From contig NZ_VCBA01000013.1 in the NCBI RefSeq assembly GCF_007995245.1, forward strand, positions 1-64,000: a stretch of 64,000 nucleotides of DNA, read 5' to 3'. Under the pieces are notes generated by a model. It ran no database searches. It had not been told where the DNA came from and saw only the letters and a list, made by a program, of their open reading frames with translations. Shown piece by piece: positions 2,923 to 16,838 of this stretch; the first letter of the stretch is position 1; each line of letters begins with the position of its first letter. A program made the position numbers and the translations under genes. This stretch comes from Tateyamaria sp. syn59 (GTDB lineage: Bacteria > Pseudomonadota > Alphaproteobacteria > Rhodobacterales > Rhodobacteraceae).

Positions 2923-4482
2923 TTACTCTGCGGGGGTCAGCTCAGGTTCGGGCGTGACCGCCTTGGGTGCGGTCGCCGCTACACCCACCGTTGCCTCATA
3001 TGCGGCAGCCGCGGCATAGACGGTGCTTTCGGTGTAATCCGCCCCAGTCAACATCAGACCGACAGGCAGGCCATCGACCTCACCGCAGGGGATCGACATA
3101 GACGGATGACCGGTCACGTCGAATTGCGACGTATTGGCGATCATCTCAAACGCCCGCGCGATAACTTCAGAGATCGGTGCGCCGGGCTCGGGCAGTTTCG
3201 ATGCAGTGATCGGCAGCGTCGGCATCAACAGCAGGTCGTAGTCAGCAAAGACGGCATCATAGGCCGCCTTGACCTTGCGCGACAGGTTCTGCGCCTTGGC
3301 GTAGTAGCGGCCATTGTAGTGGTCGATGCCGTATTGCCCGATCAACATACAGATCTTCAGGCTTTCGGACAGATCATCCGCCTTGCCGCGCCAGTTTGCA
3401 TGATAGTCCATCAGCCCGACGTCGTAGGCCCCTTTCCAGTTCATGCCCATGCCGTTGCCCTGCATCATCTGCCACTGCAGGCCTTCAATCGCAATTGGCC
3501 CCCAGACGGCGGCGGCCAAGAGATGCTCGGGGATCGAAATCTCTTCGACCGTGGCCCCCAGACCGCGATAGGTCTCTGCTGCCTCTTTCACGGCATCCGC
3601 GACGCCGGGCATCATGTTGCCTGCCACAAAGCCCTCTTTCAGAACGCCGATTTTCATGCCGGTTACACCGCGATCGAGCGCGCTTGTGTAGCCGTCGACC
3701 TTCGGTGCGTATTGGCGCGGATCCAGGCCATCAGCGCCTGCCAAAACCTCAAGCATCAGGGCGTTGTCGGCCACGGACATGGTCATCGGGCCAGTGTGGT
3801 CAATCGTGCTCTCGATGGGCATGACGCCGGTGTAGGGCACCAGACCATGCGTTGGTTTCATGCCTGAGATCCCGCAGTAGGACGCAGGCATCCGGATCGA
3901 CCCGCCCTGGTCGCCACCGATGGCCATATCGACCTCGCCTGCGGCCACAAGCGCTGCGCTGCCGGAGGACGACCCACCCGCCGAGTAGCCCATTTTGCGC
4001 GGGTTATGCACCATCGACGGCTTGGAGGTGTGGCTGCCGCCCGACAGGCAAAAGTATTCGCAAACTGCCTTGCCCTTGATCGTGGCTCCGGCATTCAAAA
4101 GCCGCGTGACGATGGTTGCATCAGCGACCGGCACAAAGCCCTCCAGCGTCGAGGCACCATTTGTCATCGGCACGCCAGCCAAGGCCACGTTATCCTTAAG
4201 AGCCACGGTCTTGCCTTTAAGCTTTCCGCTTGCCGCCCCTTCAACGTCAACTTTGCGGGCCCAGGCACCGAATGGATTTTCAGGCGCCGAGGGCGCATAG
4301 CCTGACGTGCGTGGATACATCACAGGTGGCGTAAAGTCCGGCTCTGCATCAACCACATCATAAGCGTCGAGGTTTGGCTGCATCAGCGTGTGATACTCTT
4401 CGGCCTCGGCCCGGGTCAGGCTCATTCCCAGCCCTTCCGCAATCTCTAGCACCTTGTCGACTGTAGGTCGTGTGATGGTCAT
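2923..4482 (-). CDS. Nitrile-associated amidase (amidase signature family), copy 1
   Basis: A 519-aa amidase signature enzyme that hydrolyses amides to carboxylic acid and ammonia. The Ser-cisSer-Lys triad is visible: Lys96 in VALKDNV, Ser171 in [10 protein letters not shown] and Ser195 in GGDQGGSIR. These are the same residue numbers reported for the Rhodococcus nitrile-operon amidase, as I recall, which supports both the family call and the start at 4482 (AGAGGAG ribosome site just upstream). The stretch [13 protein letters not shown] is also typical of nitrile-linked amidases rather than GatA. It lies 65 bases after the last importer gene. A second copy at 9229-10749 flanks the other side of the transporter, so the two may split substrates by size or stereochemistry. 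Confidence 0.92.
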
Positions 4483-4547
4483 GGGTTGTCTCCTCTGGGT
4501 CAGTTGAGTTGTGCAAATGCGGCCTCCCCGCCGCATCGCTTAGATGG

Positions 4548-5255
4548 TCAGGCCGTTGTCATTCCAACGAATTCAGCAACGGTTTCGGGGTTTTTCAGAT
4601 CCTGCGGGGAAAGCTCACCGGTGATCGCGCCTTTCTGAATGATCAGTACGCGGCCCGACAGCGCCGCAATGAAATCAAGGTTTTGCTCCACCAGCACCAG
4701 CGACAGGCCCCGGTCCCGAAGCGCCTTCAGCGTGTCCACGATTTCCTCAAGGATAGACGGCTGGATGCCTTCTGTAGGCTCATCCAAAAGCATCAGTTTG
4801 GGCCGGGCGCAGAGGCACCTGGCCAGTGCTAGCAATTGCTGTTCCCCGCCCGAAAGCGCACCCCCGCGGCGGTCGAGCAAGCGATGCAGGCGCGGTAAGA
4901 GATCCAGAATGTCGCCTAACAGGTCAGCGTCTTCGGCCTTGCTGCCCGCCATCCCCATGCGTAGGTTTTCGTGCACGGTGAGGTCTGGAAAAATCTGGCG
5001 ACCCTGCGGAACCAGGCCCAAACCGGCGAGCGCGCGCTTGTGCGCAGGCTGCCGGGTCACATCCTCGCCGTTGAAGCGGACGGTGCCACCGGTGGCGGGC
5101 AAATGCCCCATCAACGTGTTCATCAGCGTCGTCTTGCCCATGCCGTTATGGCCAAGGATGCCAAGAAACTCGCCTTCTTCGACATTGAGCGTGACACCGG
5201 CGAGGATCGGAATCCGGCCGTAGCCGGAGCGCAGCGCATCGACTTCGAGGATCAT
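4548..5255 (-). CDS. Urea/amide-type ABC transporter ATP-binding protein (UrtE/LivF-like)
   Basis: A 235-aa ATPase of the branched-chain-amino-acid importer superfamily. Walker A is GHNGMGKTT, the signature LSGGEQQLLALARCL, and Walker B LMLLDEPTEGIQPS. The sequence EPTEGIQPS is characteristic of UrtE rather than LivF. The start codon overlaps the stop of the UrtD-like gene by four bases, showing translational coupling. It energises import together with the UrtD-like ATPase on the cytosolic face of the two permeases. The amidase and formamidase neighbours suggest the substrate is a short amide or urea-like compound rather than an amino acid. Confidence 0.9.
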   Translation of the reverse strand: MILEVDALRSGYGRIPILAGVTLNVEEGEFLGILGHNGMGKTTLMNTLMGHLPATGGTVRFNGEDVTRQPAHKRALAGLGLVPQGRQIFPDLTVHENLRMGMAGSKAEDADLLGDILDLLPRLHRLLDRRGGALSGGEQQLLALARCLCARPKLMLLDEPTEGIQPSILEEIVDTLKALRDRGLSLVLVEQNLDFIAALSGRVLIIQKGAITGELSPQDLKNPETVAEFVGMTTA

Positions 5256-5974
5256 GCCGCAAGCCCTTTGCCGAGATAGACATCGCGCACGCGGGCATCT
5301 TCTAGCACGCGTGATACATCATCCTCGATCAGCACGGCCCCCTGATGCAACACAGTCACCGTCTTGGCGATCATCTTGATGAATTGCATGTCATGTTCCA
5401 CGACGACCAAAGCACGCGACCGATTGATATCCTGTATAAGTTCTGCGGTGCGCTCGACCTCCTCGTGGGTCATGCCCGCTGCCGGCTCATCCAGGAGGAT
5501 CAGCTCAGGTTCACCCGCCAGTACGGTGCCGATCTCGACCCATTGCCGCTGTCCGTGGGCCAATTGGCCAACTTCCTTGTGGGCAATGGCGGTGAGGCGC
5601 AATTCCGACAAGATCTGGTCGGTCAATTCTGTTGCATAGGCAGGCGTGTGTTTGTGCCGCGCGGCAATCCAGAGGTTTTCCTGAACCGTCATTGCATTGA
5701 AAACGTTTGGAACTTGCGTCTTGATGCCCACGCCCAGCCGCGCAATTTCATGTGGCCGGGCACCCGAGATGTCTTGGCCCCGCAGATGCACGTGCCCTTC
5801 GGTCGGGTGCAATTGGCCCGTCAGCAGCTTGAAAAAGGTGGACTTGCCAGCGCCATTGGGCCCGATCAGACAGCGCAGTTCAGCCTCCTTGAGGGTGAAG
5901 TCGACCTGATCGACCGCCGTGACCCCGCCAAAGCGGATCGTCAGGCCACCGGTTTGCAGCAAGGGCACGCTCAT
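5252..5974 (-). CDS. Urea/amide-type ABC transporter ATP-binding protein (UrtD/LivG-like)
   Basis: A 240-aa ATPase with Walker A GPNGAGKST, an unusual signature region LAHGQRQWVEIG, Walker B LILLDEPAAGMTHEE, and a switch His in VVEHDMQFI. The HGQ(R/K)QW form of the signature is typical of UrtD subunits. The gene overlaps both the permease upstream and the UrtE-like gene downstream by four bases each. It pairs with the UrtE-like ATPase as a heterodimer. The missing classical LSGGQ is normal for UrtD and is not a sign of inactivation. Confidence 0.9.
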   Translation of the reverse strand: MSVPLLQTGGLTIRFGGVTAVDQVDFTLKEAELRCLIGPNGAGKSTFFKLLTGQLHPTEGHVHLRGQDISGARPHEIARLGVGIKTQVPNVFNAMTVQENLWIAARHKHTPAYATELTDQILSELRLTAIAHKEVGQLAHGQRQWVEIGTVLAGEPELILLDEPAAGMTHEEVERTAELIQDINRSRALVVVEHDMQFIKMIAKTVTVLHQGAVLIEDDVSRVLEDARVRDVYLGKGLAA

Positions 5975-7008
5975 GTCTTCACCTTTGCGGTTGCGTCGGC
6001 TGTTGGTGCCGGTGCTGTGTCACGCGACAACCGTGACATCGCCAGATCGCGCAGCGTGGGAGCGATGCCTTTGGGCACCAACAGGACAAAGACGATAAGG
6101 ATCGCGCCGAGCACAAAATTGGCGTCCATCGCCTGTTGCGCGCCGATTTCTGTGACCAGCCATTGCAGCAGTAGGCAGCCGATGACTGGTCCGATCAGCG
6201 TGCCACGCCCGCCAATAATGACCCAGATGATGATCTGCGCCGACAGGCCCAGTGCAAAGATCGTCGGGCTGACGAAGGCCCCCCAGTTGACATAGAGAGC
6301 GCCCGCCAACCCGGCGATTGCGCCACCGATCATGAAGGTGATGAGCTTGTAGATGCGCGGGTCGTAGCCCAGCAGGGCGGCCCGTGTTTCGTTCTCGCGG
6401 ATGGCGACGATGATGCGCCCGAACGAGCTAGCGATCAGCACGCGCAGACCTAGATAGACCAGGATAAGCGCCATGCCGGTCACCATCCACGCCTGTTCTG
6501 GTGTCAGGATGTAGCTGGGATCGCCCGGCAGGTTGAAGGTCGGCACTCCCGGGATGCCGTTAAAACCGCCAAGGCGCGCCTCTCCGATCTTGTAGAAATC
6601 GCCTGCGGTGGAGTTCACCAGATTGAACAGGATCAACGAGACGGTGAGCGTGATCACCCCCAGATACACATCGCTGATCCCGCCATAAATCATGAAATAT
6701 CCCAGCAAAGTGGCGAAGATCACTGGGACAAGGATGGCCAGCGCGATGGCGGGGGTGCTGTCGCCAAAGTTGATCGCCGCGACCGCATAGGCATAGGCAC
6801 CCAGCCCGAAAAACGATGTCTGGCCAAAGCAGAGGATCCCCCCATAGCCCCAAATGAACCCAAGGCTCAGCGCCAGCACTGCCATCGCGGCAAAGACAGT
6901 CAGCTGCATGATCTGGAAGAGATCGATGTAAAGCGGTGCGGTCAGGATCGCGACGGCGGCAATGGCCGCCCCGATCAGCGCGCCCCTCATTCCGTTCAAA
7001 AGGTGCAT
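5971..7008 (-). CDS. Urea/amide-type ABC transporter permease (UrtC/LivM-like)
   Basis: A 345-aa inner-membrane permease with about nine or ten hydrophobic segments. The motifs LALSLGFIWGYGGILCFGQTSFFGLGAYAY (in pieces) and VIIGGRGTLIGPVIGC match the LivM/UrtC family; the FWGYGG-type loop is common in UrtC. It overlaps the downstream ATPase gene by four bases, and its ATG shares a base with the stop of the UrtB-like gene. It should form the heterodimeric channel with the UrtB-like permease. Substrate assignment rests on context only. Confidence 0.9.
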   Translation of the reverse strand: MHLLNGMRGALIGAAIAAVAILTAPLYIDLFQIMQLTVFAAMAVLALSLGFIWGYGGILCFGQTSFFGLGAYAYAVAAINFGDSTPAIALAILVPVIFATLLGYFMIYGGISDVYLGVITLTVSLILFNLVNSTAGDFYKIGEARLGGFNGIPGVPTFNLPGDPSYILTPEQAWMVTGMALILVYLGLRVLIASSFGRIIVAIRENETRAALLGYDPRIYKLITFMIGGAIAGLAGALYVNWGAFVSPTIFALGLSAQIIIWVIIGGRGTLIGPVIGCLLLQWLVTEIGAQQAMDANFVLGAILIVFVLLVPKGIAPTLRDLAMSRLSRDTAPAPTADATAKVKT

Positions 7009-7874
7009 TACAAACGTCCCTTGAAAAACCGACCAGAGATGCCCGTAGGCAGCAACCGGATCAGGATGATGGCAGCGATGAAGAGGATCACCTCACCAAA
7101 GACCGGCGTGGTCAGGAAGGCCGCGATCTGGTTGATGAAGCCAAAAAGGCCCGAGGCGGAAATCAGGCCCCAGAGGATTGAGGTGCCGCCGCCCACCACA
7201 GTGATAAAAGCCTTGGCGATAAACGCGGCCCCCATTGTCGGGACAACCCCGGCAATCGGCGCCAACAACCCGCCCGCAAGGCCCGACATTGCCGCCCCCA
7301 ACCCGAAGGTGGCCATATAGACCCGCGCCGGGTTGACACCGAGGGTGGCAGCCATGTCGGGGTTCTGCATGACCGCTCGCGCTATGAGACCAGCGCGAGT
7401 GAAACGCATCACCCCAAACACCGCCGTCATAAGCAATAGTGCCATGAGCGCCAGAAATGGCGTGTAAAGGCTGGACTGATACGCCCCGACCTGAAATCCG
7501 CCCAGAGGCGAGGATACCCCCACAATCGTATTGCCAAAGATCATCGTGGTGCCGCCGACGATGACGAGGCTGAGCCCCCAAGTAGCCAGCATCGAATCCA
7601 CCAGCCGCCCGTAAAGAAACTGGATCAGGCAACGCTCGACGATCATGCCGACGAGACCCACGAACACGGGCGCAATGACCAGCATGGCAAACCAGATGTT
7701 CACACCAGCCGACACCGACAGCACCGTGGCGTAAGCCCCGAGCATGAGGAATTCCCCGTGCGCTAGGTTGATGATTTTCATCATGCCGAAGATCACCGCA
7801 AGACCGGCGCTGATCAGCACCAGCGAGGCGATGCCGCTTACAACGTCCAGCCCTACAATGATCGCGATGTCCAT
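7008..7874 (-). CDS. Urea/amide-type ABC transporter permease (UrtB/LivH-like)
   Basis: A 288-aa inner-membrane permease. The N-terminal GLAVIFGMMKIINLAHGEF is the hallmark of the LivH/UrtB family, and the protein has about eight hydrophobic segments. I chose the ATG at 7874 (MDIAIIVG), ten bases after the binding-protein gene; a longer frame upstream to 7973 lies inside that gene. Proteobacterial UrtB proteins often have a long N-terminal periplasmic extension that is absent here, so this transporter is closer to amide transporters such as the Fmd type than to a dedicated urea importer. That distinction is inference. Confidence 0.9.
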   Translation of the reverse strand: MDIAIIVGLDVVSGIASLVLISAGLAVIFGMMKIINLAHGEFLMLGAYATVLSVSAGVNIWFAMLVIAPVFVGLVGMIVERCLIQFLYGRLVDSMLATWGLSLVIVGGTTMIFGNTIVGVSSPLGGFQVGAYQSSLYTPFLALMALLLMTAVFGVMRFTRAGLIARAVMQNPDMAATLGVNPARVYMATFGLGAAMSGLAGGLLAPIAGVVPTMGAAFIAKAFITVVGGGTSILWGLISASGLFGFINQIAAFLTTPVFGEVILFIAAIILIRLLPTGISGRFFKGRL

Positions 7875-7884
7875 GTGCCTGCCC

Positions 7885-9123
7885 TTAGATATCGATGATG
7901 TAGTGGGTGGTGTCGTTCGGGTTCGCTTCGAGATCGCAAACGGCCGCCGTATCCAGCGGTTGTTGCTGCTCAAAGGTTTCCAGCACTTTCCACGCCCGAT
8001 TTTCGACCTCTGCCAGGAAGGTGTTGCGGGTCACGTGGTGGGTCTTGGGATCAACCACCACCTTGCCGCTCGGCCCTTCAAAGGACAGGCCAGTCTCCAG
8101 CGCTTCGATCACCTCCATCCGGTCGACCGATCCCGCCTGTCTGACGCCTTCGGCCCAGAGGTGGACGCCTTCGTAGCTGGCCGCAGCAAGTTCGCTGACG
8201 TAAGGGGTCTGTGCCCCGTGCCGGTCCTTGATCGCTTTGACAAAGGCGACGCTGGCTGGCGTGTCGAGCTCTTCGAAGTAGCCGTAGCTGCCCAGAACGC
8301 CGGTACTTTCCGCATCCTCCAACGTGGCCGGTTCGTTCACCAGACCGAATGTCGTCGAAGCGATCGGGATTTCGTCCTTCAAACCGGCTGCGGCCCACTG
8401 CCGGTAGAAGGCGGTGTGGTTCCCGCCGACCATGGCTGACAGAAGCAAATCGGGCTCCGCCGCCTGAATGCGCGAAATCGACGGGCCGAAATTTGTCACA
8501 TCCAGCGGGAAGAAGTCGATGGAGGCCACTTCGCCGCCATTGTCTTCAACGTATTTGCGCATCCATTTGGCGGTGATCTGTCCGTAATTGTAATCCGCCG
8601 CGATGATGTACGCCTTCTTGCCCCAAAGGTTCATGGCGTGGGGCACCAATTTCTCGACCGTTTGCGCAGGTGTAGTTCCCGTATTGAACGTGTTGCGGTC
8701 GCAAACGCCGCCCTCATAGAGCGTGTTGTAGAAATAGAGAGTTCTGAACCGGCTAAAGATCGGCCGGATCGCCTCGCGTGATGCCGAAGTGATACCCCCA
8801 TGGATCACGTCCACCCTGTCCCGCACAGCCAGTTGCTGGGCAAACTGGGAATAGAGTTGGATGTTGGACTGGGTGTCATAGTTGATCAACTCGACCTCAC
8901 GCCCCAGCAATCCGCCTGCCGCGTTGATCTCTTCCACAGCCAGCATGATCGCATAAACCATGGGCTCTCCGGTGGCAGCCAGCGGTCCGGCCAAGTCATG
9001 CAAGCTACCCAGCTTGATCGGACCATCCTGCGCTCGCGCCACGCTGCCGATAAGCGCAGGCGCGGCCAACGTCGCCCCGCCTGCTGCGGTGTTGCGAATG
9101 AACTTACGGCGTGAAAGTGTCAT
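7885..9123 (-). CDS. Urea/amide-type ABC transporter substrate-binding protein (UrtA/FmdD-like)
   Basis: A 412-aa periplasmic binding protein. The N-terminus MTLSRRKFIRNTAAGG followed by a hydrophobic stretch and ARAQ is a twin-arginine (Tat) signal. The mature protein begins with GPIKLGSLHDLAGPLAATG and contains VDVIHGGITSASREA, the layout of the UrtA/AmiC periplasmic-binding family. The ATG at 9123 follows a strong AAGGAG site. It would capture the amide or urea-like ligand and deliver it to the two permeases encoded downstream. It is related in fold to the leaderless AmiC-like sensor at 13450-14583, suggesting that importer and regulator see similar ligands. Confidence 0.92.
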   Translation of the reverse strand: MTLSRRKFIRNTAAGGATLAAPALIGSVARAQDGPIKLGSLHDLAGPLAATGEPMVYAIMLAVEEINAAGGLLGREVELINYDTQSNIQLYSQFAQQLAVRDRVDVIHGGITSASREAIRPIFSRFRTLYFYNTLYEGGVCDRNTFNTGTTPAQTVEKLVPHAMNLWGKKAYIIAADYNYGQITAKWMRKYVEDNGGEVASIDFFPLDVTNFGPSISRIQAAEPDLLLSAMVGGNHTAFYRQWAAAGLKDEIPIASTTFGLVNEPATLEDAESTGVLGSYGYFEELDTPASVAFVKAIKDRHGAQTPYVSELAAASYEGVHLWAEGVRQAGSVDRMEVIEALETGLSFEGPSGKVVVDPKTHHVTRNTFLAEVENRAWKVLETFEQQQPLDTAAVCDLEANPNDTTHYIIDI

Positions 9124-9148
9124 GGAAATACTCCTTCTGTTGGTCTTA

Positions 9149-9170
9149 GGTCGCGTGCAGTGCCGCGACC
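9149..9170 (-). promoter_or_regulatory. Intercistronic hairpin between amidase 2 and binding-protein gene
   Basis: An inverted repeat GGTCGCG (9149-9155) and CGCGACC (9164-9170) encloses an 8-base loop in the 105-base gap before the binding-protein gene. There is no T-run, so it is more likely an RNA-stabilising or processing element than a terminator. Such elements often separate binding-protein cistrons that need higher expression. Confidence 0.4.
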
Positions 9171-9228
9171 GTTTGGTGCGCCGTGCGCCAGGGCAAATCG
9201 CGTCGCGCAAGACGGGGTTGCGGCAACG

Positions 9229-10749
9229 TCACTCGACCGCTGCATTCTCAAACGAAAGCTGTTCAACTGCTGCCGCCGCGCGGTAGAGCGTCTTTTCATC
9301 CAGCTTGGCGGCGATAAACATGGCCCCAATCGGTCGGCCATCGCCAGTCGTGCCGGCGGGGACTGAAATGCTGGGGTGGCCCGAGGCACAGGAGGGCGCG
9401 GTGTTGGGGATCATGGCAAAGGCACGCTCGACAATCGTCTCGCGGCTGACCTCCGGTCCGGGCAGCGGGTGCGTTGCCATCGGCGTAGTGGGCATCAACA
9501 GCACATCAAATCTGGCCAGCAGATCGTCATAGGCCGCCGTCAACAAACGGTTCAGATTCTGCGCCTTGCCGTAATAGCGCCCTTTATGGCGCGACGACAT
9601 GTAATGGCCCATCAAAAGGCCAAGCTTCAGCGTCTCCGACATATCGTCGGCCTGCTCTTTCCATCTGGATTGCTTGTCCAGCAGGCTTTCGAGAAAGACG
9701 CCCTTCATGTTGGTGCCATAGGCGTTTTGGCGCATCATCAATTCGGTGGCACCTTCAAGGAAGATCGGCGTCCAGATCGCAGCACCCGCGGCATGCAGCG
9801 GCATCGAGACCTCCTCGACCTCAGCCCCTTGCGTGCTCAACCTGTCGGCCACCTCGCGAATGCGGACATCGACCTCAGTCTCTGCCCCTGGATGCTCAAA
9901 CCCCTCCGCAAGCAGGCCTACCTTTAGTCCACGCGGCGGCGAACCGAGGTGTTTGGAGTAGTCCTGCGATGGCGCACCCGTCTGGCGCGGGTCAAGCCCG
10001 TCCGGTCCGGCCATGACCTCCAGCATCAGTGCATTGTCCGCCACGGTTCGCGTGATCGGCCCGACGTGGTCAACGGTCAATTCGACAGGGAAAACGCCTG
10101 TATACGGCACAAGCCCGTGGGTCGGTTTCAGACCGACGACGCCACAAAACGCGGCCGGAATGCGGATCGAACCACCCTGGTCGCCACCCGTCGCCATGTC
10201 GACGATGCCCGCCGCCACCAAGGCCGCAGAGCCGGAGGATGACCCGCCCGCGTTGTGCCCCGGAACAACGGGGTTCTCCACAGGACCGCTTGCCGACGTA
10301 TGGCTGCCGCCGGAGGCACAATAGTACTCACAGACCGACTTGCCGTGGATGTCAGCACCGGCATCAAGCAGGCGTGTGACGATTGTCGCGTCAGTTTCCG
10401 GGACATAACCGCCAAGAATGGTCGAACCATTCTCCATCGTGACGCCCGCCACATTGACGTTGTCCTTGATCGCGACGGTCTTGCCCGACAGCTTGCCGTT
10501 GGCAGCGCCCTTAATCGTGGTTTTGACGGCCCAGGCATTGAACGGGTTGTCATTCGGGTCGGGCCGGACTCCCGGCGACCGGTCGTATTTGACCTCTGGA
10601 AGCGGAGTGTGCATGCCCGCCACAAGGTCATATGCCTCAAAGAGACCTTCCATAAGGCCTAGAAAAGAGGCACTGTCTTGCGAACTAAGATGCAAGCCCA
10701 ACTCGGCCCCTGCGGCACGCACAGCCTCTGCGTCTGGACGGTCTATCAT
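9229..10749 (-). CDS. Nitrile-associated amidase (amidase signature family), copy 2
   Basis: A 506-aa paralogue of the amidase at 2923-4482, close in sequence along its whole length. The triad is Lys95 (AIKDNV), Ser170 ([10 protein letters not shown]) and Ser194 (GGDQGGSIR), and [15 protein letters not shown] follows. It is the first gene of the leftward operon, starting at 10749 next to a 430-base spacer shared with the rightward nitrile hydratase genes. It should hydrolyse the amide made by the nitrile hydratase to acid and ammonia. Having two such enzymes on either side of one importer suggests duplication with functional divergence. Identity to the other copy is high but was not computed. 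Confidence 0.92.
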   Translation of the reverse strand: MIDRPDAEAVRAAGAELGLHLSSQDSASFLGLMEGLFEAYDLVAGMHTPLPEVKYDRSPGVRPDPNDNPFNAWAVKTTIKGAANGKLSGKTVAIKDNVNVAGVTMENGSTILGGYVPETDATIVTRLLDAGADIHGKSVCEYYCASGGSHTSASGPVENPVVPGHNAGGSSSGSAALVAAGIVDMATGGDQGGSIRIPAAFCGVVGLKPTHGLVPYTGVFPVELTVDHVGPITRTVADNALMLEVMAGPDGLDPRQTGAPSQDYSKHLGSPPRGLKVGLLAEGFEHPGAETEVDVRIREVADRLSTQGAEVEEVSMPLHAAGAAIWTPIFLEGATELMMRQNAYGTNMKGVFLESLLDKQSRWKEQADDMSETLKLGLLMGHYMSSRHKGRYYGKAQNLNRLLTAAYDDLLARFDVLLMPTTPMATHPLPGPEVSRETIVERAFAMIPNTAPSCASGHPSISVPAGTTGDGRPIGAMFIAAKLDEKTLYRAAAAVEQLSFENAAVE

Positions 10750-11178: not shown

Positions 11179-11787
11179 ATGCCTCATGACCATCCCCACG
11201 CGCACAACAAACCGCTGTCGGATGTGGAATTGCGCGTCAAGGCGCTGGAATCCGTGCTGAGCGATAAGGGGTTGATCGATCCAGAAGCCATCGATCTGAT
11301 CGTCGAAACCTATGAGACGAAGATAGGGCCGCGCAACGGCGCGCGTGTCGTTGCAAAGGCATGGTGCGATCCGGCCTACAAAGATCGGCTGCTAACCGAT
11401 GCCACGGCTGCAATCAGCGAACTCGGCTTTTCCGGCGTGCAGGGCGAGGACATGGTGGTGGTTGAGAACACCGAAACCGTCCATAACATCGTCGTCTGCA
11501 CCCTGTGCTCTTGCTATCCTTGGCCGACGCTGGGCCTGCCGCCGGTGTGGTACAGGGCTGCACCCTACCGCGCAAAAGTGGTGAAGGACCCGCGCGGCGT
11601 TCTCGAAGAATTCGGCGTCACCCTGCCAGAAGATACTGAAATCCGCGTTTGGGACAGCAATGCCGAGTTGCGCTATCTTGTTCTGCCCAAACGACCTGCT
11701 GGCACCGACGGGCTGACCGAAGAGCAACTGTCCGAGCTTGTGACCCGCGATGCGATGATCGGAACAGATGTGCTCGCTGCGCGCTGA
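11179..11787 (+). CDS. Nitrile hydratase alpha subunit, cobalt type
   Basis: A 202-aa nitrile hydratase alpha subunit that hydrates nitriles to amides in the cytosol. The metal-claw motif VCTLCSCY lies at residues 106-113 with Cys107, Cys110 and Cys112. The Thr at 108, instead of Ser, is the usual marker of a non-corrin cobalt centre. Other family features are [21 protein letters not shown] (in pieces) and the downstream [15 protein letters not shown]. The ATG at 11179 follows AAGGAG; a GTG-initiated longer frame from 11113 is unlikely. It heads a tightly spaced rightward operon. Thiocyanate hydrolase gamma has the same claw, but the amidase neighbours favour a nitrile hydratase. Confidence 0.93.
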
Positions 11788-11817
11788 ACGGCCCAACATG
11801 ACAGAAAGGACAGTCGG

Positions 11818-12129
11818 ATGAATGGCATACATGACCTGGGCGGCATGGACGGGCTTGGACCGATCAACCCCGTCAAAGAAGAGCCTTGTTTCAAGGATGA
11901 ATGGGAGCGCCGGATGTTCGGCCTCTTTGTCTCCTGCTTTGCGGGCGGGCATTACAACGTGGATGAGTTCCGACATGCTATCGAACGCATGGGCCCGGCG
12001 CATTATCTTGAGACTAGTTACTACGAGCATTGGCTCGCCTCGCTTGAGACGCTGCTGACGGAAAAGGGCGTTGTCACCCAGGATGAGTTGGAAGCGCGCA
12101 AGAAATTCATCGCGATGGAGGACGCCTGA
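11818..12129 (+). CDS. Nitrile hydratase beta subunit, N-terminal half (split beta)
   Basis: A 103-aa protein corresponding to the helical N-terminal half of the nitrile hydratase beta subunit. It begins MNGIHDLGGMDGLGPINP, the standard beta N-terminus, and has the conserved DEWERRMFGL with the Arg that contacts the alpha-subunit metal claw in known structures. It continues through HYLETSYYEHWLASLETLL. It stops at TGA 12127-12129, whose last base is the A of the next ATG, so the two halves are translationally coupled and in different frames. Separate beta halves are known in thiocyanate hydrolase and toyocamycin nitrile hydratase. A sequencing frameshift is the alternative explanation, but the second half has its own proper start. 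Confidence 0.85.
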   Translation: MNGIHDLGGMDGLGPINPVKEEPCFKDEWERRMFGLFVSCFAGGHYNVDEFRHAIERMGPAHYLETSYYEHWLASLETLLTEKGVVTQDELEARKKFIAMEDA

Positions 12130-12482
12130 TGCCCACTTTGACCCCAGACATTGTGCCTGGCCTGATTGCCACAGGCGCGTCGGCGCGCCTCGACGAAGAC
12201 GTGGCCCCTAAATTCAAAGTCGGCGACAGGGTGGAGATGAAGAACATCAACCCTGTGACGCATACCCGCCTGCCACGGTATGTGCGTGGCAAGACCGGCG
12301 TTGTGCAGCGCGCTCACGGCGTCTTTGCCTTTCCCGACACCGCAGCCCACGGTCATGGCCACAAAGCGCAACACGTCTATTCCGTCAAGTTCTCGTTCCG
12401 TGAGCTTTGGGGCGAGGATCACGCCGAAAACATGTTTCTCTATATCGACATGTTCGACGACTACATGAGGCCGGCACCATGA
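12129..12482 (+). CDS. Nitrile hydratase beta subunit, C-terminal half (SH3-like, split beta)
   Basis: A 117-aa protein matching the SH3-like C-terminal barrel of the nitrile hydratase beta subunit. Features are FKVGDRVEMKNINP, PRYVRGKTGVVQRAHGVFAFPD (in pieces), and YSVKFSFRELWGED near the end. The RGKTGVV segment holds the second conserved Arg that contacts the claw sulfenates in known enzymes. Its first ATG overlaps the preceding stop by one base, and its TGA overlaps the ATG of the accessory gene. It should associate with the N-terminal half and the alpha subunit to give a three-chain enzyme. The additional N-terminal residues MPTLTPDIVPGLIATG suggest it is a natural gene rather than a broken one. 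Confidence 0.85.
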   Translation: MPTLTPDIVPGLIATGASARLDEDVAPKFKVGDRVEMKNINPVTHTRLPRYVRGKTGVVQRAHGVFAFPDTAAHGHGHKAQHVYSVKFSFRELWGEDHAENMFLYIDMFDDYMRPAP

Positions 12483-12865
12483 ACGATCAGATCAAGGGGT
12501 CCGACTTGAAGCATACGCCGCACCTGCCTCACGACGAAGGCGGCCCGGTGTTCAACGCGCCATGGGAAGCCAAAGCTTTCGCCATAACTGTCGACTTGCA
12601 CAAGCGCGGTGTCTTTGACTGGTCAGAGTGGTGCGACACCCTCGCGGATGAAATCCGGTCGGCTCAGGCCGCAGGCGATCCAGATCTGGGTGACACTTAT
12701 TACGCGCACTGGCTCAACGCGTTGGAGACGCTGATCACCGCCAAGAAAGTGAGCACCGCCGAGAGCCTTCTAGCGGCTAAAGATGATTGGCGCGCTGCCG
12801 ATGAACATCGTGGGTTCGGTGAGGCCCCTGTATTTGTGAAAGGTGCGGCGCAACCCGGTGCCTAA
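12479..12865 (+). CDS. Nitrile hydratase accessory/activator protein
   Basis: A 128-aa protein of the nitrile hydratase accessory family, small proteins resembling the beta N-terminal half that help load the metal. Visible features are GGPVFNAPWEAKAFAITVDLH and YYAHWLNALETLITAKK, the latter closely parallel to the YYEHWLASLETLL of the split beta gene. The ATG at 12479 overlaps the upstream stop as ATGA. It completes the four-gene rightward operon. For cobalt enzymes, self-subunit swapping by such an activator is the known maturation route. No cobalt transporter gene was found in the window. Confidence 0.87.
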   Translation: MNDQIKGSDLKHTPHLPHDEGGPVFNAPWEAKAFAITVDLHKRGVFDWSEWCDTLADEIRSAQAAGDPDLGDTYYAHWLNALETLITAKKVSTAESLLAAKDDWRAADEHRGFGEAPVFVKGAAQPGA

Positions 12866-12935
12866 GCGATTGTGAGCTGACCAATACAACGGCTGCATGC
12901 ACCCCGATGGGTCCCGCAGGCTCGCTTGCCATGGA

Positions 12936-13358
12936 TCATGTCAGCGTTTGAAGTGCTTCGCGCAGTAGCTGCGCCTTTTCCGAACCGATCGTCTCAATGA
13001 TCCGGTCGTTTTGCTCTTCGACATGCAATACGATCTCGTCAGACAGTTTGACCCCGAGGTCCGTCAACGCCAAGTAGACCCGACGTTGATCATGCGGCGA
13101 CAGCTGCCGTTGCACCAAACCATCGGCAACCATTCTGTCCACCAGCTTAGTCAGTGTCGGGGGATTCATCAGAACACTATCCGCGAGTTCACGCATTGTG
13201 ATACCCTTGGTAACACGCAATGACTGCAGCACACGCCACGTCTCGACCTGCACGTTGAGCGTCTTCAATTTGTCGCTCAATTCGACGTGAAGCTTACGAT
13301 GCGCCGCAGCAAGTGCGTAAGAAATGTACGAGTCTATGGATTTCTGTGGCTTTGTCAT
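12936..13358 (-). CDS. MarR family transcriptional regulator
   Basis: A 140-aa winged-helix regulator. The helix-turn-helix region spans GITMRELADSVLMNPPTLTKLVDRMVADGLV (in pieces, about residues 52-83), and the wing contains SPHDQRRVYLALTDLG, as expected for MarR proteins. It is convergent with the nitrile hydratase operon and divergent from the AmiC-like gene, leaving a 91-base spacer between starts. In Rhodococcus rhodochrous J1 a MarR-like protein (NhhD) and an AmiC-like protein (NhhC) together control a cobalt nitrile hydratase. This locus has the same pair, so control of nitrile hydratase expression is the likely role. Confidence 0.9.
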   Translation of the reverse strand: MTKPQKSIDSYISYALAAAHRKLHVELSDKLKTLNVQVETWRVLQSLRVTKGITMRELADSVLMNPPTLTKLVDRMVADGLVQRQLSPHDQRRVYLALTDLGVKLSDEIVLHVEEQNDRIIETIGSEKAQLLREALQTLT

Positions 13359-13449
13359 CCTGAGACCAGCAGTACACTCGTTGAAAAGTTGACGTTGGAC
13401 ACACCACGTACCACCGTCTTGAATGCAAAACTAGCAGAGAAACAGATCG
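13359..13449. promoter_or_regulatory. Divergent promoter region between marR-type and amiC-like genes
   Basis: This 91-base spacer separates two divergent regulator genes. It contains TTGAAAAGTTGA at about 13381-13392, which resembles TTGGAAAGTTAA in the nitrile hydratase control region. Autoregulation by the MarR protein is plausible. No clear -10/-35 pair could be fixed by eye. Confidence 0.35.
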
Positions 13450-14583
13450 ATGGCTTCGACGCGCGTGCATCTCTGGCGAGCCAACGAAAAGGCGGATCTT
13501 TCAACGGACCGACCGGATATACGCACAGACCAAAGGAACGAGCATGCCTACCGCGTCGCCTTGTTAATCCCGATGTGTGGCGCGGCAGGCATGTGGGCGC
13601 CGTCCTGCATTGCAAGCGCCGAGGTTGCCTTGCAAGAACTCAACGCACAGTCAGGTATCTGCGGACGTTACGTCGAACTTGTGCTGATCAATGCCGCCAT
13701 CGAAGCGGAAACACCAGCCGAAACCCTGATTGACGACCTGATCATACAGGGGCAAATCGATGCCATCGTAGGGATGCACATCAGCGCCGTGCGCCAGAGG
13801 GTCATCGCAGCCGTCCGCGGCAGAATTCCATTTATCTACACCCCGCTCTACGAGGGTGGTGAGGCGGCACCCGGCGTCTTTGCAATCGGTGATACCCCCG
13901 CCCGTCAGCTAGGTCCGGCTATTCGGTACATGAGCGCGCGGTTTCGGCTGAAGAAGTGGGCACTGATCGGAAACGACTACATATGGCCTCGCGTATCGCA
14001 TGCCCACGCCAAAAAAGAACTGCGCTGCCAGCATCTCGATCTGGCTTCAGAGACTTACTTGCCGTTCAGCTCCAACAAGATCAGTGAGGCCGTGGAGGCC
14101 ATTGGGGCTTCCGGAGCAGACGCAGTGCTGATTTCACTGGTGGGTCAGGACGCGGTTGTATTCAACCGCATTTTCGGCGCGATGAAGTTGCATGACAGGA
14201 TGTTCCGCCTGTCCTGCGCCATCGAGGAAAACGGTCTGTTGGCAAGTGGCGTACGAAACCTTGATCGCTTGTTCTCTTCTGCATCCTATTTTGCTCGGCT
14301 CGAGACGGCGGAGAATGCTGAATTTCGTGCAAAATACCACAACCTTCATCAAGAGCGCGCGCCGATGCTGAACGCCTTGGGCCAATCGACATATGAGGGG
14401 CTTCACTTTCTGGCCAGCTTGGTGAGCCAACCTGGCCAAGACTGGCGGATGCGTGCATCCGAACCAGTTTTATATAAGAGCGCGCGGCGTGGCTTCTATA
14501 CAACCAATGCCTCCAACACGTCGCCTGTATTTGTCGCACGTGCGAATGGATTTGTTTTCGACGATTTACGAAGGCTTCCCTGA
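13450..14583 (+). CDS. AmiC/NhhC-like cytosolic amide sensor (periplasmic-binding fold without signal peptide)
   Basis: A 377-aa protein with the bilobed fold of the UrtA/AmiC family. Signature stretches are YRVALLIPMCGAAGMWAPS, ASAEVALQELNAQSGICGR, IPFIYTPLYEGGE and WALIGNDYIWP. The N-terminus is charged and lacks a signal peptide, so it should stay in the cytosol as a ligand sensor, as do AmiC of Pseudomonas and NhhC of Rhodococcus. No AmiR-type antiterminator is encoded nearby; the adjacent MarR-type gene is the likely partner. The start at 13450 has only a weak ribosome site, so the true start could be slightly downstream. It has somewhat lower GC content than the operon genes, continuing into the mobile region on its right. 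Confidence 0.85.
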   Translation: MASTRVHLWRANEKADLSTDRPDIRTDQRNEHAYRVALLIPMCGAAGMWAPSCIASAEVALQELNAQSGICGRYVELVLINAAIEAETPAETLIDDLIIQGQIDAIVGMHISAVRQRVIAAVRGRIPFIYTPLYEGGEAAPGVFAIGDTPARQLGPAIRYMSARFRLKKWALIGNDYIWPRVSHAHAKKELRCQHLDLASETYLPFSSNKISEAVEAIGASGADAVLISLVGQDAVVFNRIFGAMKLHDRMFRLSCAIEENGLLASGVRNLDRLFSSASYFARLETAENAEFRAKYHNLHQERAPMLNALGQSTYEGLHFLASLVSQPGQDWRMRASEPVLYKSARRGFYTTNASNTSPVFVARANGFVFDDLRRLP

Positions 14584-15201
14584 CGCAGCCTGAAGTGCAC
14601 TTGTAACGTAAGCGATAATGCCTCTGGCCCCTGGGCTTATGATGGGTAAGTACGTTTGGGCGATCGGCGTTTTTGTTCGTATCCCAGTCTGCAACTATGC
14701 ACGGCAAGAAGAATCCGTTTGCGTGGCTAGTTCAACCACGACCACATGACCCGCGCGGAAGATGTTTCTTGTCGTCCCATGCGTCGCCGATTTGGTCGAG
14801 GCTCATCAGATCATAGTCCTGCGCGTTGTTGTGGGTGCATCTTTGGCCTAGCAATTGCTGGTCTCTGGAAGGCTCGGGATACTGCGTCCTCAGCAAAATG
14901 TGCATCCTAAGATGCTTCAGATAGTTGCTGAACCGGCCCAAACCTGCCATCCAACTAGCGCCTTCGGCGCTGCGGCGCAGCCCGCCAAAGACACCATTCG
15001 CTACCATCGCGAAATCCAATTGTGCTGAGAGGTCAGCTAAGCAGGACCAAGCGCTTACTCGCTGCGTAGTTACCAGCTGAGAAGTGTTGTGCTCGTTGAC
15101 GGAAGCCAACTGCTGAGCGCCACTCTACGTTGTTGTTCGAATGCAAAAACAGTGATCGTGGTTGGCGCGGCCTGACGGAGGTTGGCTGGGAGGTGATCTA
15201 G
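14584..15201. other. Gene-poor spacer left of the IS element
   Basis: About 620 bases without a supportable gene. A 125-codon frame on the minus strand (14732-15109) has no recognisable motif and no good ribosome site. Base composition is less GC-rich than the neighbouring operons, as in many decayed or transferred segments. I see no tRNA and no clear terminator. Confidence 0.5.
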
Positions 15202-15226
15202 TGGGGTGTATCCCCTCTGCATACGT
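15202..15226 (+). repeat. Left terminal inverted repeat of the IS1595-family element
   Basis: TGGGGTGTATCCCCT is followed by CTG and CATACG. It matches the right end in about 21 of the first 24 positions. The core GGGGTGTATCCCC is itself nearly palindromic, which probably matters for transposase binding. Confidence 0.85.
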
Positions 15227-15266
15227 TGTTCTCGACTCTCGCGGGGGTTCGTGAGATGAGAGGTTC

Positions 15267-15860
15267 ATGCTCAAACGAATTGCGATTTGGCTTTGGAATG
15301 CTGGCGGATGGCTTTGGCTGGCCGTCAATGCGGCAACAACCTATGCGACACTGCCCGAGGATATTGAAGAATTCTGGAGGGAGAACATGATGGGTGAGCC
15401 GCTCCTGCCATGGCTTGTTGTCGGTACAGGTGCACTTCTTATGCTGTGGGTCTATTACCCAGCATTTCGAGCATGGGGTACCGTCAAAAATGAGCGGGGC
15501 GCAGTGGACCGGAGTGTCAGTATTGGCCGCGACAACCTAGCACCAATTTTAACTGGTGACGTTCATATCAACCCAAGGCTTGAGGTCACCGATCACCTCG
15601 TTTCAGAACTGGTCCAAGCAATAGACTTGAGTAAACCAGTGGTAGTCGCCTCCGCCATGGACGGTAGGTCCCAGACTTTAAGTTCGGAACTTCGCGAGAG
15701 ACTGAAAAGCGCCGGTTGCAACGTTTCAAGCGCGACGCTGCAAATTGGCTCTAGTACTGCTATGGTGTACGATAAGCCCGTTACAATCTGGCCTAATGGC
15801 TTGCCACTCTTTGGCGGGCAAGAACAGACAGTATTCATTGATGCGGGCGTCCCTCTATGA
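15267..15860 (+). CDS. IS cargo protein, two-TM hypothetical membrane protein
   Basis: A 197-aa protein I do not recognise. Two hydrophobic segments are seen, about residues 5-27 (WLWNAGGWLWLAVNAATTY) and 45-68 (LPWLVVGTGALLMLWVYY), with a soluble C-terminal two thirds. After the membrane part comes SVSIGRDNLAPILTGDVHI, then an alternating pattern (KPVVVASAMDG, LRERLKSAGCNVSSATLQIG) that suggests a small alpha/beta fold. It lies entirely between the IS ends and its stop overlaps the ATG of the next ORF as ATGA, so the two are a coupled pair of passengers. Function is unknown; a role in host interaction or control of the element is only a guess. Confidence 0.7.
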   Translation: MLKRIAIWLWNAGGWLWLAVNAATTYATLPEDIEEFWRENMMGEPLLPWLVVGTGALLMLWVYYPAFRAWGTVKNERGAVDRSVSIGRDNLAPILTGDVHINPRLEVTDHLVSELVQAIDLSKPVVVASAMDGRSQTLSSELRERLKSAGCNVSSATLQIGSSTAMVYDKPVTIWPNGLPLFGGQEQTVFIDAGVPL

Positions 15861-16030
15861 CCAATCTTAAGCAGGCTAGAAACAAAGGCAAAATTGAAGC
15901 CTTCATCAAGGAACACGAGGCCGACCCAGACGGCGACCTCGACAAGCTAGACGCCTTGATTAAGCGTCCAGTTCAGGAAAGCGGGAAAGCAACTCATCCA
16001 GCATCGTCTCAGGACGCATCCGACGATTGA
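15857..16030 (+). CDS. IS cargo small protein (57 aa)
   Basis: A short ORF beginning MTNLKQARNKGKIEAFIKEH and ending in a polar ASSQDASDD tail. Composition is highly charged with no hydrophobic segment. Its start overlaps the upstream stop (ATGA), which is good evidence for translation. The last 71 bases run antisense over the 3' end of the transposase gene. Similar small, charged, Asp-tailed proteins occur beside IS1595-type transposases in related bacteria as far as I recall; this was not searched. It could be an accessory factor of the element. Confidence 0.55.
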   Translation: MTNLKQARNKGKIEAFIKEHEADPDGDLDKLDALIKRPVQESGKATHPASSQDASDD

Positions 16031-16838
16031 AGCGGTACTCAAACTCTTTGACGTAACGCTCTAGGTACTTTGGCGAAACGCTGGTGTGCGTGCCTGCAAT
16101 CGACTTCTTTAAATGGTTGAAGAAGCTCTCAATCTGGTTCGTGCTGGTCCCGTCTGGCGTGGCGTACTCGCCCTTGCCGTGGTTGACCGTCTCGTGGGTG
16201 TAGTCGGTGACGGGAAGCGCCTTCTGATAGGCACGCAGTTCGTCCGTGTGAACCTCTGAGCCGGGCTTCACGTGCTCTATAATCTCTGGCACCAATGACC
16301 AGCGCGTCTGGTCAGGGACAACTTGCAGGATCGCGTCACCGCCGCGCTCAACCATACCCATGACAACGGTCTTACGTTTACGCCAGTCCATCCCGGTAGT
16401 CTTGCCACCCACAAAGGTTTCATCAACCTCTACGACCTCACCAGCGCCGCCCAGAGGCGCATCACCATCGACTGCCGCCATGTGTTCGCGGATCAGCTTC
16501 GCCATGCGCCATGCGGTCTTGTACGTCACGCCAAGCTGGCGCTGCAATTCCTTGCCGCTCACGCCGTGCTTTGACGTGGTGAAAAGGAAGATAGCGTAGA
16601 ACCAGAGTTGCAGCGGTGTGCGCGACTTTTCAAAGATGCTGCCAACCATCGGGTGGATGTGGTGGCCGCACCACTGGCACGAATAGGCCTGCTCATTGGT
16701 CAGGCGATACCACTTCGCCTCGCGCTCACACTTGGGGCATTCGTGGCCCTGACCAAAGCGGACGTTGAACAAATGCTCAAGACAGGCTTCATCGTTGGGG
16801 AATTGTGTGAAGAACTGGCGTACGTTGGTCTGTTTCAT
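15960..16838 (-). CDS. IS1595 family transposase
   Basis: A 292-aa DDE-type transposase of the IS1595/ISXO2 family. An N-terminal zinc ribbon (CPKCEREAKWYRL then CQWCGHHIHPMVGSIFEKSRTPL, in pieces) covers about residues 34-75. The catalytic domain begins with EVDETFVGGK (first Asp) and continues through HTDELRAY (second Asp) and the conserved NQIESFFNHLKKSIAGTH region. The gene appears full length and intact. Its start is 49 bases inside the right inverted repeat. It is divergent to the cargo genes and overlaps the second one at its 3' end. Intact motifs suggest the element may still be active. Confidence 0.93.
   Translation of the reverse strand: MKQTNVRQFFTQFPNDEACLEHLFNVRFGQGHECPKCEREAKWYRLTNEQAYSCQWCGHHIHPMVGSIFEKSRTPLQLWFYAIFLFTTSKHGVSGKELQRQLGVTYKTAWRMAKLIREHMAAVDGDAPLGGAGEVVEVDETFVGGKTTGMDWRKRKTVVMGMVERGGDAILQVVPDQTRWSLVPEIIEHVKPGSEVHTDELRAYQKALPVTDYTHETVNHGKGEYATPDGTSTNQIESFFNHLKKSIAGTHTSVSPKYLERYVKEFEYRFNRRMRPETMLDELLSRFPELDA

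Follow-up and report, generated by a model that had tools for sequence, protein, structure and literature searches.

The window analyzed here is a whole stretch of 64,000 nucleotides from Tateyamaria sp. syn59 (contig C13 of genome G000, which has 4.57 Mb in 56 contigs). Four plus-strand genes were packed into 1.7 kb of this window. They encode the alpha subunit of a nitrile hydratase (NHase), the N-terminal and C-terminal halves of an NHase beta subunit (betaN and betaC, respectively), and an accessory protein. The original prediction had assigned positions 11179 to 12865 to three NHase chains; all three were found there, and the fourth gene, for the accessory protein, also lies inside the range. 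The features of the locus and its neighborhood are as follows.

2923-4536, minus strand: second amidase, 537 aa (NF005565, 805.4 bits)
4548-9210, minus strand: ABC importer genes, five genes between the two amidases
5252-5974 and 4548-5255, minus strand: ABC ATPases (named from sequence alone, without a model search)
7008-7973 and 5971-7008, minus strand: ABC permeases (named in the same way)
7885-9210, minus strand: ABC binding protein, urea/amide type (Peripla_BP_6, 283.5 bits)
9229-10749, minus strand: amidase, divergent neighbor, 506 aa (NF005565, 702.2 bits; cut-off, 545)
11179-11787, plus strand: NHase alpha subunit, ATG at 11179, 202 aa, claw VCTLCSCY
11818-12129, plus strand: betaN, N-terminal half of NHase beta, 103 aa (PF21006 match)
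12117-12122, plus strand: Shine-Dalgarno-like GGAGGA, six bases 5' of the betaC ATG
12127-12131, plus strand: TGATG stop-start overlap of betaN and betaC, one shared base (read from the sequence)
12129-12482, plus strand: betaC, C-terminal SH3-like half of NHase beta, 117 aa (PF02211 match)
12479-12865, plus strand: P14K-type NHase accessory protein, 128 aa (TIGR03889), four-base ATGA overlap with betaC
12936-13358, minus strand: MarR-family regulator (PF01047, 46.8 bits)
13450-14583, plus strand: AmiC-like amide-binding protein (PF13458, 175.7 bits)

The NHase genes had been predicted to lie inside an amidase operon. Because both amidase genes are on the opposite strand and face away from the NHase genes, the arrangement is a divergent cluster and not a single operon. 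Homologs of the flanking amidase, importer genes, MarR gene, and AmiC-like gene were present in all four Roseobacter loci that we inspected, and the end of the second amidase was visible at the edge of each. The neighborhoods of the other split loci varied; many of them included an amidase belonging to that family. Loci L194 to L196, on Agrobacterium and Rhizobium plasmids, contained a split NHase with a same-family amidase, a transporter, and a MarR gene; CbtAB cobalt-uptake genes were present in L194 and L196, and an aldoxime dehydratase gene was present in L194 and L195. The aldoxime dehydratase gene adjoined the NHase in these two loci and in L049, which has a fused beta. A search of the window's genome for aldoxime dehydratase gave no match, but the control genomes likewise gave none, so absence was not shown. 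The natural reading of this context is that the locus would function in the uptake and degradation of nitriles, from nitrile to amide to acid, with the AmiC-like protein as a possible sensor.

Several other features were observed in and around these loci. An acetamidase/formamidase-family protein (PF03069, 127 bits) was encoded at 1025-2062, toward the distal end of the run of amidase genes on the minus strand. Just past the NHase cluster, a 292-aa minus-strand frame (15960-16838) resembled an IS1595-type transposase by eye, and the lowest-GC 4-kb bin of the window (12001-16000, 0.552) lies beside this putative transposase frame. A second NHase, with a fused beta, was found elsewhere in the genome (G000:C1:157387). 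Plasmid pUSP2 of Aminobacter sp. MSH1, a dichlorobenzamide (BAM) degrader, carried a split NHase (L198) that was recorded as a pair of SH3-like proteins, with an amidase gene and CbtAB genes next to it.

Subunits and active-site residues

The reading frames were intact and the alpha subunit and both beta halves matched family models, in agreement with the prediction of a three-chain, cobalt-type NHase. The alpha subunit scored 309.6 bits against TIGR01323 (cut-off, 249.85) and 300 bits against PF02979 (cut-off, 27.2). BetaN scored 141.7 bits against PF21006, aligning to positions 1 to 97 of the 115 in the profile, and betaC scored 120.3 bits against PF02211. Against TIGR03888, the model for complete beta subunits, the two halves scored 141.8 and 130.6 bits, each below the cut-off of 152.2, and aligned to positions 1 to 97 and 119 to 226 of 226, respectively. 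Hence, both halves of the model were encoded, but not on one chain. The accessory protein scored 91.1 bits against TIGR03889 (cut-off, 46). The best matches of betaN and betaC were residues 1 to 94 and 104 to 219, respectively, of the Pseudomonas putida beta subunit; since one match ends at residue 94 and the other begins at residue 104, the cut is in the linker.

A CTLCSC claw followed by a tyrosine marks cobalt-type NHases, in which betaArg52, Glu56, Tyr68, His147, and Arg149 have catalytic roles and the two arginines bind the claw. The claw and tyrosine were present in the window alpha subunit in the predicted form (VCTLCSCY). In P. putida numbering, betaN contained Arg52, Glu56, Tyr68, and His71, and betaC contained His147 and Arg149. 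The expected conserved arginine was thus found in each beta half and, with Arg52 in betaN and Arg149 in betaC, each half would supply one claw-binding arginine. The claw cysteines, betaArg52, Glu56, Tyr68, and Arg149 were kept in 40 of 40 split rows of our alignment, and His147 was kept in 39 of 40. The AlphaFold2 model of betaC alone was mostly confident (mean pLDDT, 83.5), with a loop near residues 73 to 76 below 50. The best structure match of this model was the P. putida beta subunit (3qxe_B; E value, 1.8e-12), and the alpha subunit of thiocyanate hydrolase (2dd4_A) ranked lower (E value, 9.8e-7).

The junction between the beta halves

As had been claimed, beta was encoded by two intact genes joined by the one-base TGATG overlap. 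A scan of genome contigs with betaC yielded 38 related loci, and the split recurred in named isolates (Roseobacter sp. H9 and WL0113) and in MAGs, at 61 to 91% betaC identity. All of the loci with unbroken frames and at least 61% betaC identity were split (L032 to L048, L053, and L054; L042 and L054 were cut by contig ends), including the four Roseobacter loci, which shared 91% betaC identity with the window. L055 (71%) had breaks in several of its genes and was excluded. Close relatives with one uninterrupted beta gene, which would have counted against the prediction, were absent from the 38 loci in the sense that fused genes were found only from 60% betaC identity down: L049 (60%), L052 (57%), and L056 to L069 (45 to 55%) were fused, and L050 (58%) and L051 (59%) were split. 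In comparisons with six relatives, dN/dS was 0.027 to 0.085 for betaN (five of six comparisons defined) and 0.021 to 0.102 for betaC (six of six defined), with many dS values close to saturation. The beta split is real and conserved, and both halves are under purifying selection.

The GGAGGA sequence upstream of betaC had a predicted duplex of -9.3 kcal/mol with the 16S tail, a value that 10% of 200 shuffles of the same 20 bases reached; the shuffled duplexes averaged -5.4 kcal/mol because the bases are G-rich. We analyzed the junctions of 39 split loci, near-copies included. The anti-Shine-Dalgarno duplex between the 20 upstream bases and the 16S tail was -6 kcal/mol or lower in 35 of these 39 loci versus 10 of 118 fused homologs, in which the matching place was approximate, and it was weaker than -6 kcal/mol in the other 4 split loci. 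The difference in strength between split and fused genes had a Mann-Whitney P value of 6e-17, with near-copies counted. The offset of the betaC start was -1 in 29 loci, -4 in 4 loci, +2 in 3 loci, and +1 and -8 in 1 locus each; in 1 further locus, the start was 20 bases past the betaN stop. The last of these, L197, is on a cyanobacterial plasmid, has its annotated start further downstream, and lacked a Shine-Dalgarno site at the start that was tested. In L269 and L278, the betaC ATG was 20 bases inside betaN, in the other frame.

If the beta gene were really a single gene that had lost one base, through a sequencing error or as a decaying pseudogene, the -1 frame relation would be the one expected of a one-base change, and the PLSDB tables of three split plasmids omit beta, as would happen had it been scored as a pseudogene. 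However, the identical junction was found in many independent genomes (including L035, which has 'cov_106.8' in its record title), a Shine-Dalgarno site precedes betaC, and both halves are under purifying selection. On these grounds of recurrence, Shine-Dalgarno site, and dN/dS, we rejected this explanation as extremely improbable, and the single-base error fusing the two frames that could have overturned the prediction is excluded with it. It is also very improbable that programmed -1 frameshifting fuses the halves into one beta chain and that the split product is a by-product. In 37 of the 39 split loci, betaC occupied the -1 frame, as this idea would have it, but the offsets vary (-1, -4, +1, +2, -8, and a gap), the L269 and L278 starts lie well inside betaN, and a start codon with a Shine-Dalgarno site is retained before betaC. 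Only 2 of the 39 split loci had a slippery heptamer (X XXY YYZ, where Y is A or T) no more than 60 bases away, and programmed frameshifting was rejected for this reason. We read the junction as a putative site of coupled re-initiation that would yield two separate chains.

Split and fused beta genes among relatives

Split clusters fell into two types: type A, with the order betaN-betaC-alpha, and type B, the type found in the window, with the order alpha-betaN-betaC-accessory and the sequence CYPW. In type A, the claw was followed by CYPR in 23 of 24 rows (Arg two positions past the last claw Cys plus Tyr-Pro), and no accessory gene was found in the type A loci that were fetched. Type A NHases recurred in the window's family (L070 to L080, L082 to L088, and L182 to L185), with 18 clusters among the family-sample loci fetched; of six type A alpha subunits scanned, three passed the NHase model cut-off and none passed that for thiocyanate hydrolase (SCNase).

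The gene order of the P. putida cobalt NHase, which we take to be alpha-beta-accessory, is that of the window. The P. putida enzyme (PDB 3qxe, with a P14K activator) shared 71% identity with the window in alpha (195 residues), 55% in betaN (93 residues), and 53% in betaC, and it has the same catalytic residues at the positions checked, but its beta is one chain, whereas the window beta is two chains cut in the linker. Judged by these likenesses, the predicted window enzyme belongs with the P. putida cobalt NHase type. One report (PMC7329996) describes a three-subunit Streptomyces canus enzyme (AnhD-AnhE-AnhA), an active cobalt NHase that acts on acetamiprid. Like the window enzyme, it has a beta subunit split into N and C parts; unlike the alpha-betaN-betaC-accessory cluster of the window, its genes have the order betaN-betaC-alpha without an activator gene. 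The same report cites TNHase, with alpha subunit ToyJ, as a three-subunit NHase. Three-chain NHases are therefore already in print.

To place the window enzyme, near-copies were thinned from 177 clusters to 131 and then to 103 plus P. putida. A 61-row set was chosen by hand, and removing seven of these rows and adding 18 gave the main set of 72 rows (60 type B, 8 type A, and 4 SCNase), from which a tree with no inferred root was built on 389 columns of alpha, betaN, and betaC. Left out of the trees were L055, L081, and L089 (broken frames), L042 (no alpha), and L090 and L193 (duplicates); L178 was only in the tree of 103 rows plus P. putida. The 60 type B rows, split and fused, formed one group with 100/100 support, which excluded the eight type A rows (the S. 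canus enzyme itself is not among these). Four SCNase rows, of the six above the cut-off, grouped apart at 100/100.

The 33 split type B rows needed four changes of the split label in the 72-row tree, and four were forced by starred branches; the changes needed and forced were five and three in the tree of 103 rows plus P. putida and four and three in the 61-row tree. A main lineage (support, 82/78) held 35 rows, 30 split and 5 fused. The five fused rows (the P. putida-type 3qxe, L049, L136, L137, and L200) grouped with the split Agrobacterium and Rhizobium plasmids at 100/91. An AU test rejected a separation of the 30 split rows from the five fused ones (P = 0.0016, and P = 0.02 in the 61-row set), and AU tests also rejected placing all 33 type B split rows on one side (P = 2.6e-43) and all 27 fused type B rows on one side (P = 1e-5); the groups tested were named after seeing a tree. 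The branch uniting split and P. putida-type rows had 63/93 support in the 61-row set, and L148 was outside the main lineage in the tree of 103 rows plus P. putida and inside it in the 72-row tree. L171 (the offset of -8) grouped with fused genes, and L269 and L278 were also among fused genes. A quick, poorly resolved tree of alpha alone needed eight changes, four of them forced; in this tree, a 9-row set (5 fused and 4 split) held P. putida and L194 (support, 98), and a 35-row set (28 split and 7 fused) held the window, P. putida, and L194 (support, 97).

These trees indicate that the beta split arose more than once within the ordinary two-chain, P. putida-type line and not out of the three-chain enzymes already known. 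Because fused P. putida-type enzymes are nested among split ones, beta would have been re-fused or split repeatedly: either the P. putida beta re-fused, or its plasmid sisters split anew. We do not claim a direction, since the backbone is moderately supported and the root was not inferred. A tentative scenario, which we hold to be possible but doubtful, is that beta splitting is reversible and repeated and that the beta subunits of P. putida and of enterobacterial plasmids re-fused from three-chain ancestors. Under this scenario, the ancestral enzyme may have been three-chain, because SCNase and the betaN-betaC-alpha enzymes are also split, and the fused beta would be derived; having beta in two pieces would allow betaN to change places on alpha with its homolog, the accessory protein, while cobalt is being loaded.

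The split clusters also showed some variation in gene content. The accessory protein of L115, L116, L117, L119, and L166 (and, more widely, L167 to L170) had an extra C-terminal betaC-like domain, which scored 76 to 86 bits against PF02211 in the three scanned and had a His in place of the claw-binding Arg149 in the four aligned. L170 had a further accessory-like frame behind the accessory gene, and L178 (G295:C18:50000-57000) was a type B cluster with two tandem betaN genes followed by a frame-broken betaC. L165 (G411:C283:1-6000) had a split cluster with a fused beta gene immediately upstream.

A thiocyanate hydrolase, or a betaN-betaC-alpha three-chain NHase of the S. canus or toyocamycin type, would be cut at the same point, and the betaC model also matched 2dd4_A. 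The original prediction had likened the window's architecture to those of SCNase and the toyocamycin enzyme (presumably the TNHase of ToyJ). The shared cut at the domain border was borne out and, in thiocyanate hydrolase (PDB 2dd4), the folds are shared as well, but the kinship was not. The window scored 186.9 bits against TIGR03887 (SCNase gamma subunit; cut-off, 291.45), whereas six genomes above the cut-off, found among 303 searched in the class of G709, scored 381.6 to 396.8 bits; among 249 genomes searched at the phylum level, none scored above it. The window alpha shared 71% identity with P. putida, 47% with an SCNase locus, and 53% with a betaN-betaC-alpha locus. For SCNase locus L264, identities in alpha, betaN, and betaC were 47, 30, and 32%. 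Gene order and the accessory gene also differ, as SCNase loci have the order betaN-betaC-alpha, and the betaN-betaC-alpha loci mostly have CYPR against the CYPW of the window and lie elsewhere in the tree, which does not include the S. canus and ToyJKL sequences. Thiocyanate hydrolase was rejected on the basis of the TIGR03887 score and the 100/100 separation in the tree, and we consider either identity highly improbable. The prediction further proposed a distinct family with different specificity. A large, mostly split lineage does exist, and six genomes have both a split and a fused type B copy, so the first part holds loosely; however, fused enzymes, including that of P. putida, lie within the lineage, and splits arose at other points in the tree as well (L171; L269 and L278). 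We found no support for a different specificity, as the catalytic positions checked are unchanged from P. putida. We therefore consider it unlikely that the split defines a separate family with a substrate range of its own, and assignment to the P. putida type remains the preferred reading.

Among the matches listed, the loci fetched placed a type B split cluster in 13 of 385 sampled genomes of the class and a fused type B cluster in 74 of 385; the 13 include the window's genome and G295, with its frame-broken betaC. L081, in which betaC is broken inside and not at the junction, was apparently mislabeled as 'Bsplit' in this count, and the split cluster of L165 as 'Afused'; the figure of 13 is unaffected. 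Split and fused type B copies occurred together in G000, G402, G423, G496, G552, and G573. A betaC match was found in 102 of 198 genomes of the family, and the window's cluster was the only type B split among the 30 plus 20 family loci fetched (L081 and L089 were frame-broken). No type B split was found in 19 other genomes of the genus, of which 9 were read and had fused genes and 10 were classed from score and frame length only; 3 of the 19 had a short, weak match (45 to 52 bits), as seen in type A. Given the lack of a type B split in these 19 congeners, the cluster occurs sporadically, may seldom be used, and was probably acquired.

Proposed working of the enzyme and its meaning

We think it very likely (probability, roughly 0.88) that the locus makes a working three-chain, cobalt-containing NHase of the P. 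putida type (alpha, betaN, and betaC) with an accessory protein and coupled translation of the beta halves. The junction suggests that ribosomes ending betaN at TGATG would restart immediately on betaC, guided by GGAGGA, and that betaN and betaC would be made in step. By analogy with P14K systems, the accessory protein, which is related to betaN, would help load cobalt into alpha and would then be swapped on alpha for the beta pieces. As in known NHases, Arg52 of betaN and Arg149 of betaC would reach the oxidized cysteines of the alpha claw, completing the active site. The genomic context suggests that the amide product would pass to the neighboring amidases and yield nitrogen and carbon.

No alpha-betaN-betaC-accessory lineage was found in the literature searched, which was mostly open access, with longer result sets covered in part. 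According to PMC3323583, the NHase beta of Roseobacter sp. CCS2 'appeared truncated', and the beta of another strain was used in its place; this truncated beta may be an unrecognized sighting of the split beta. An expressed Roseobacter NHase was made from two listed proteins, according to PMC7321127, and the accessible parts of PMC10098168, PMC2603476, and PMC7193024 contain no mention of a split beta of this kind. The beta halves are easily missed, as each half of the window's beta falls below the cut-off of the beta model. In plasmid records, split halves were named 'SH3-like domain-containing protein' (L197 and L198) or were absent from the table (L194 to L196). In the latter three, the PLSDB tables give alpha and the accessory gene, with a gap in the locus tags at the split beta, as if it were a pseudogene.

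The three-chain state alone does not imply kinship with thiocyanate hydrolase. The window enzyme would represent a naturally occurring and widespread three-chain form within a family of industrial enzymes, a form that seems to have escaped notice in the literature searched. Naturally paired split and fused enzymes, such as those of the Agrobacterium and Rhizobium plasmids versus the P. putida type, would allow the role of the beta linker in assembly, cobalt loading, and stability to be tested.
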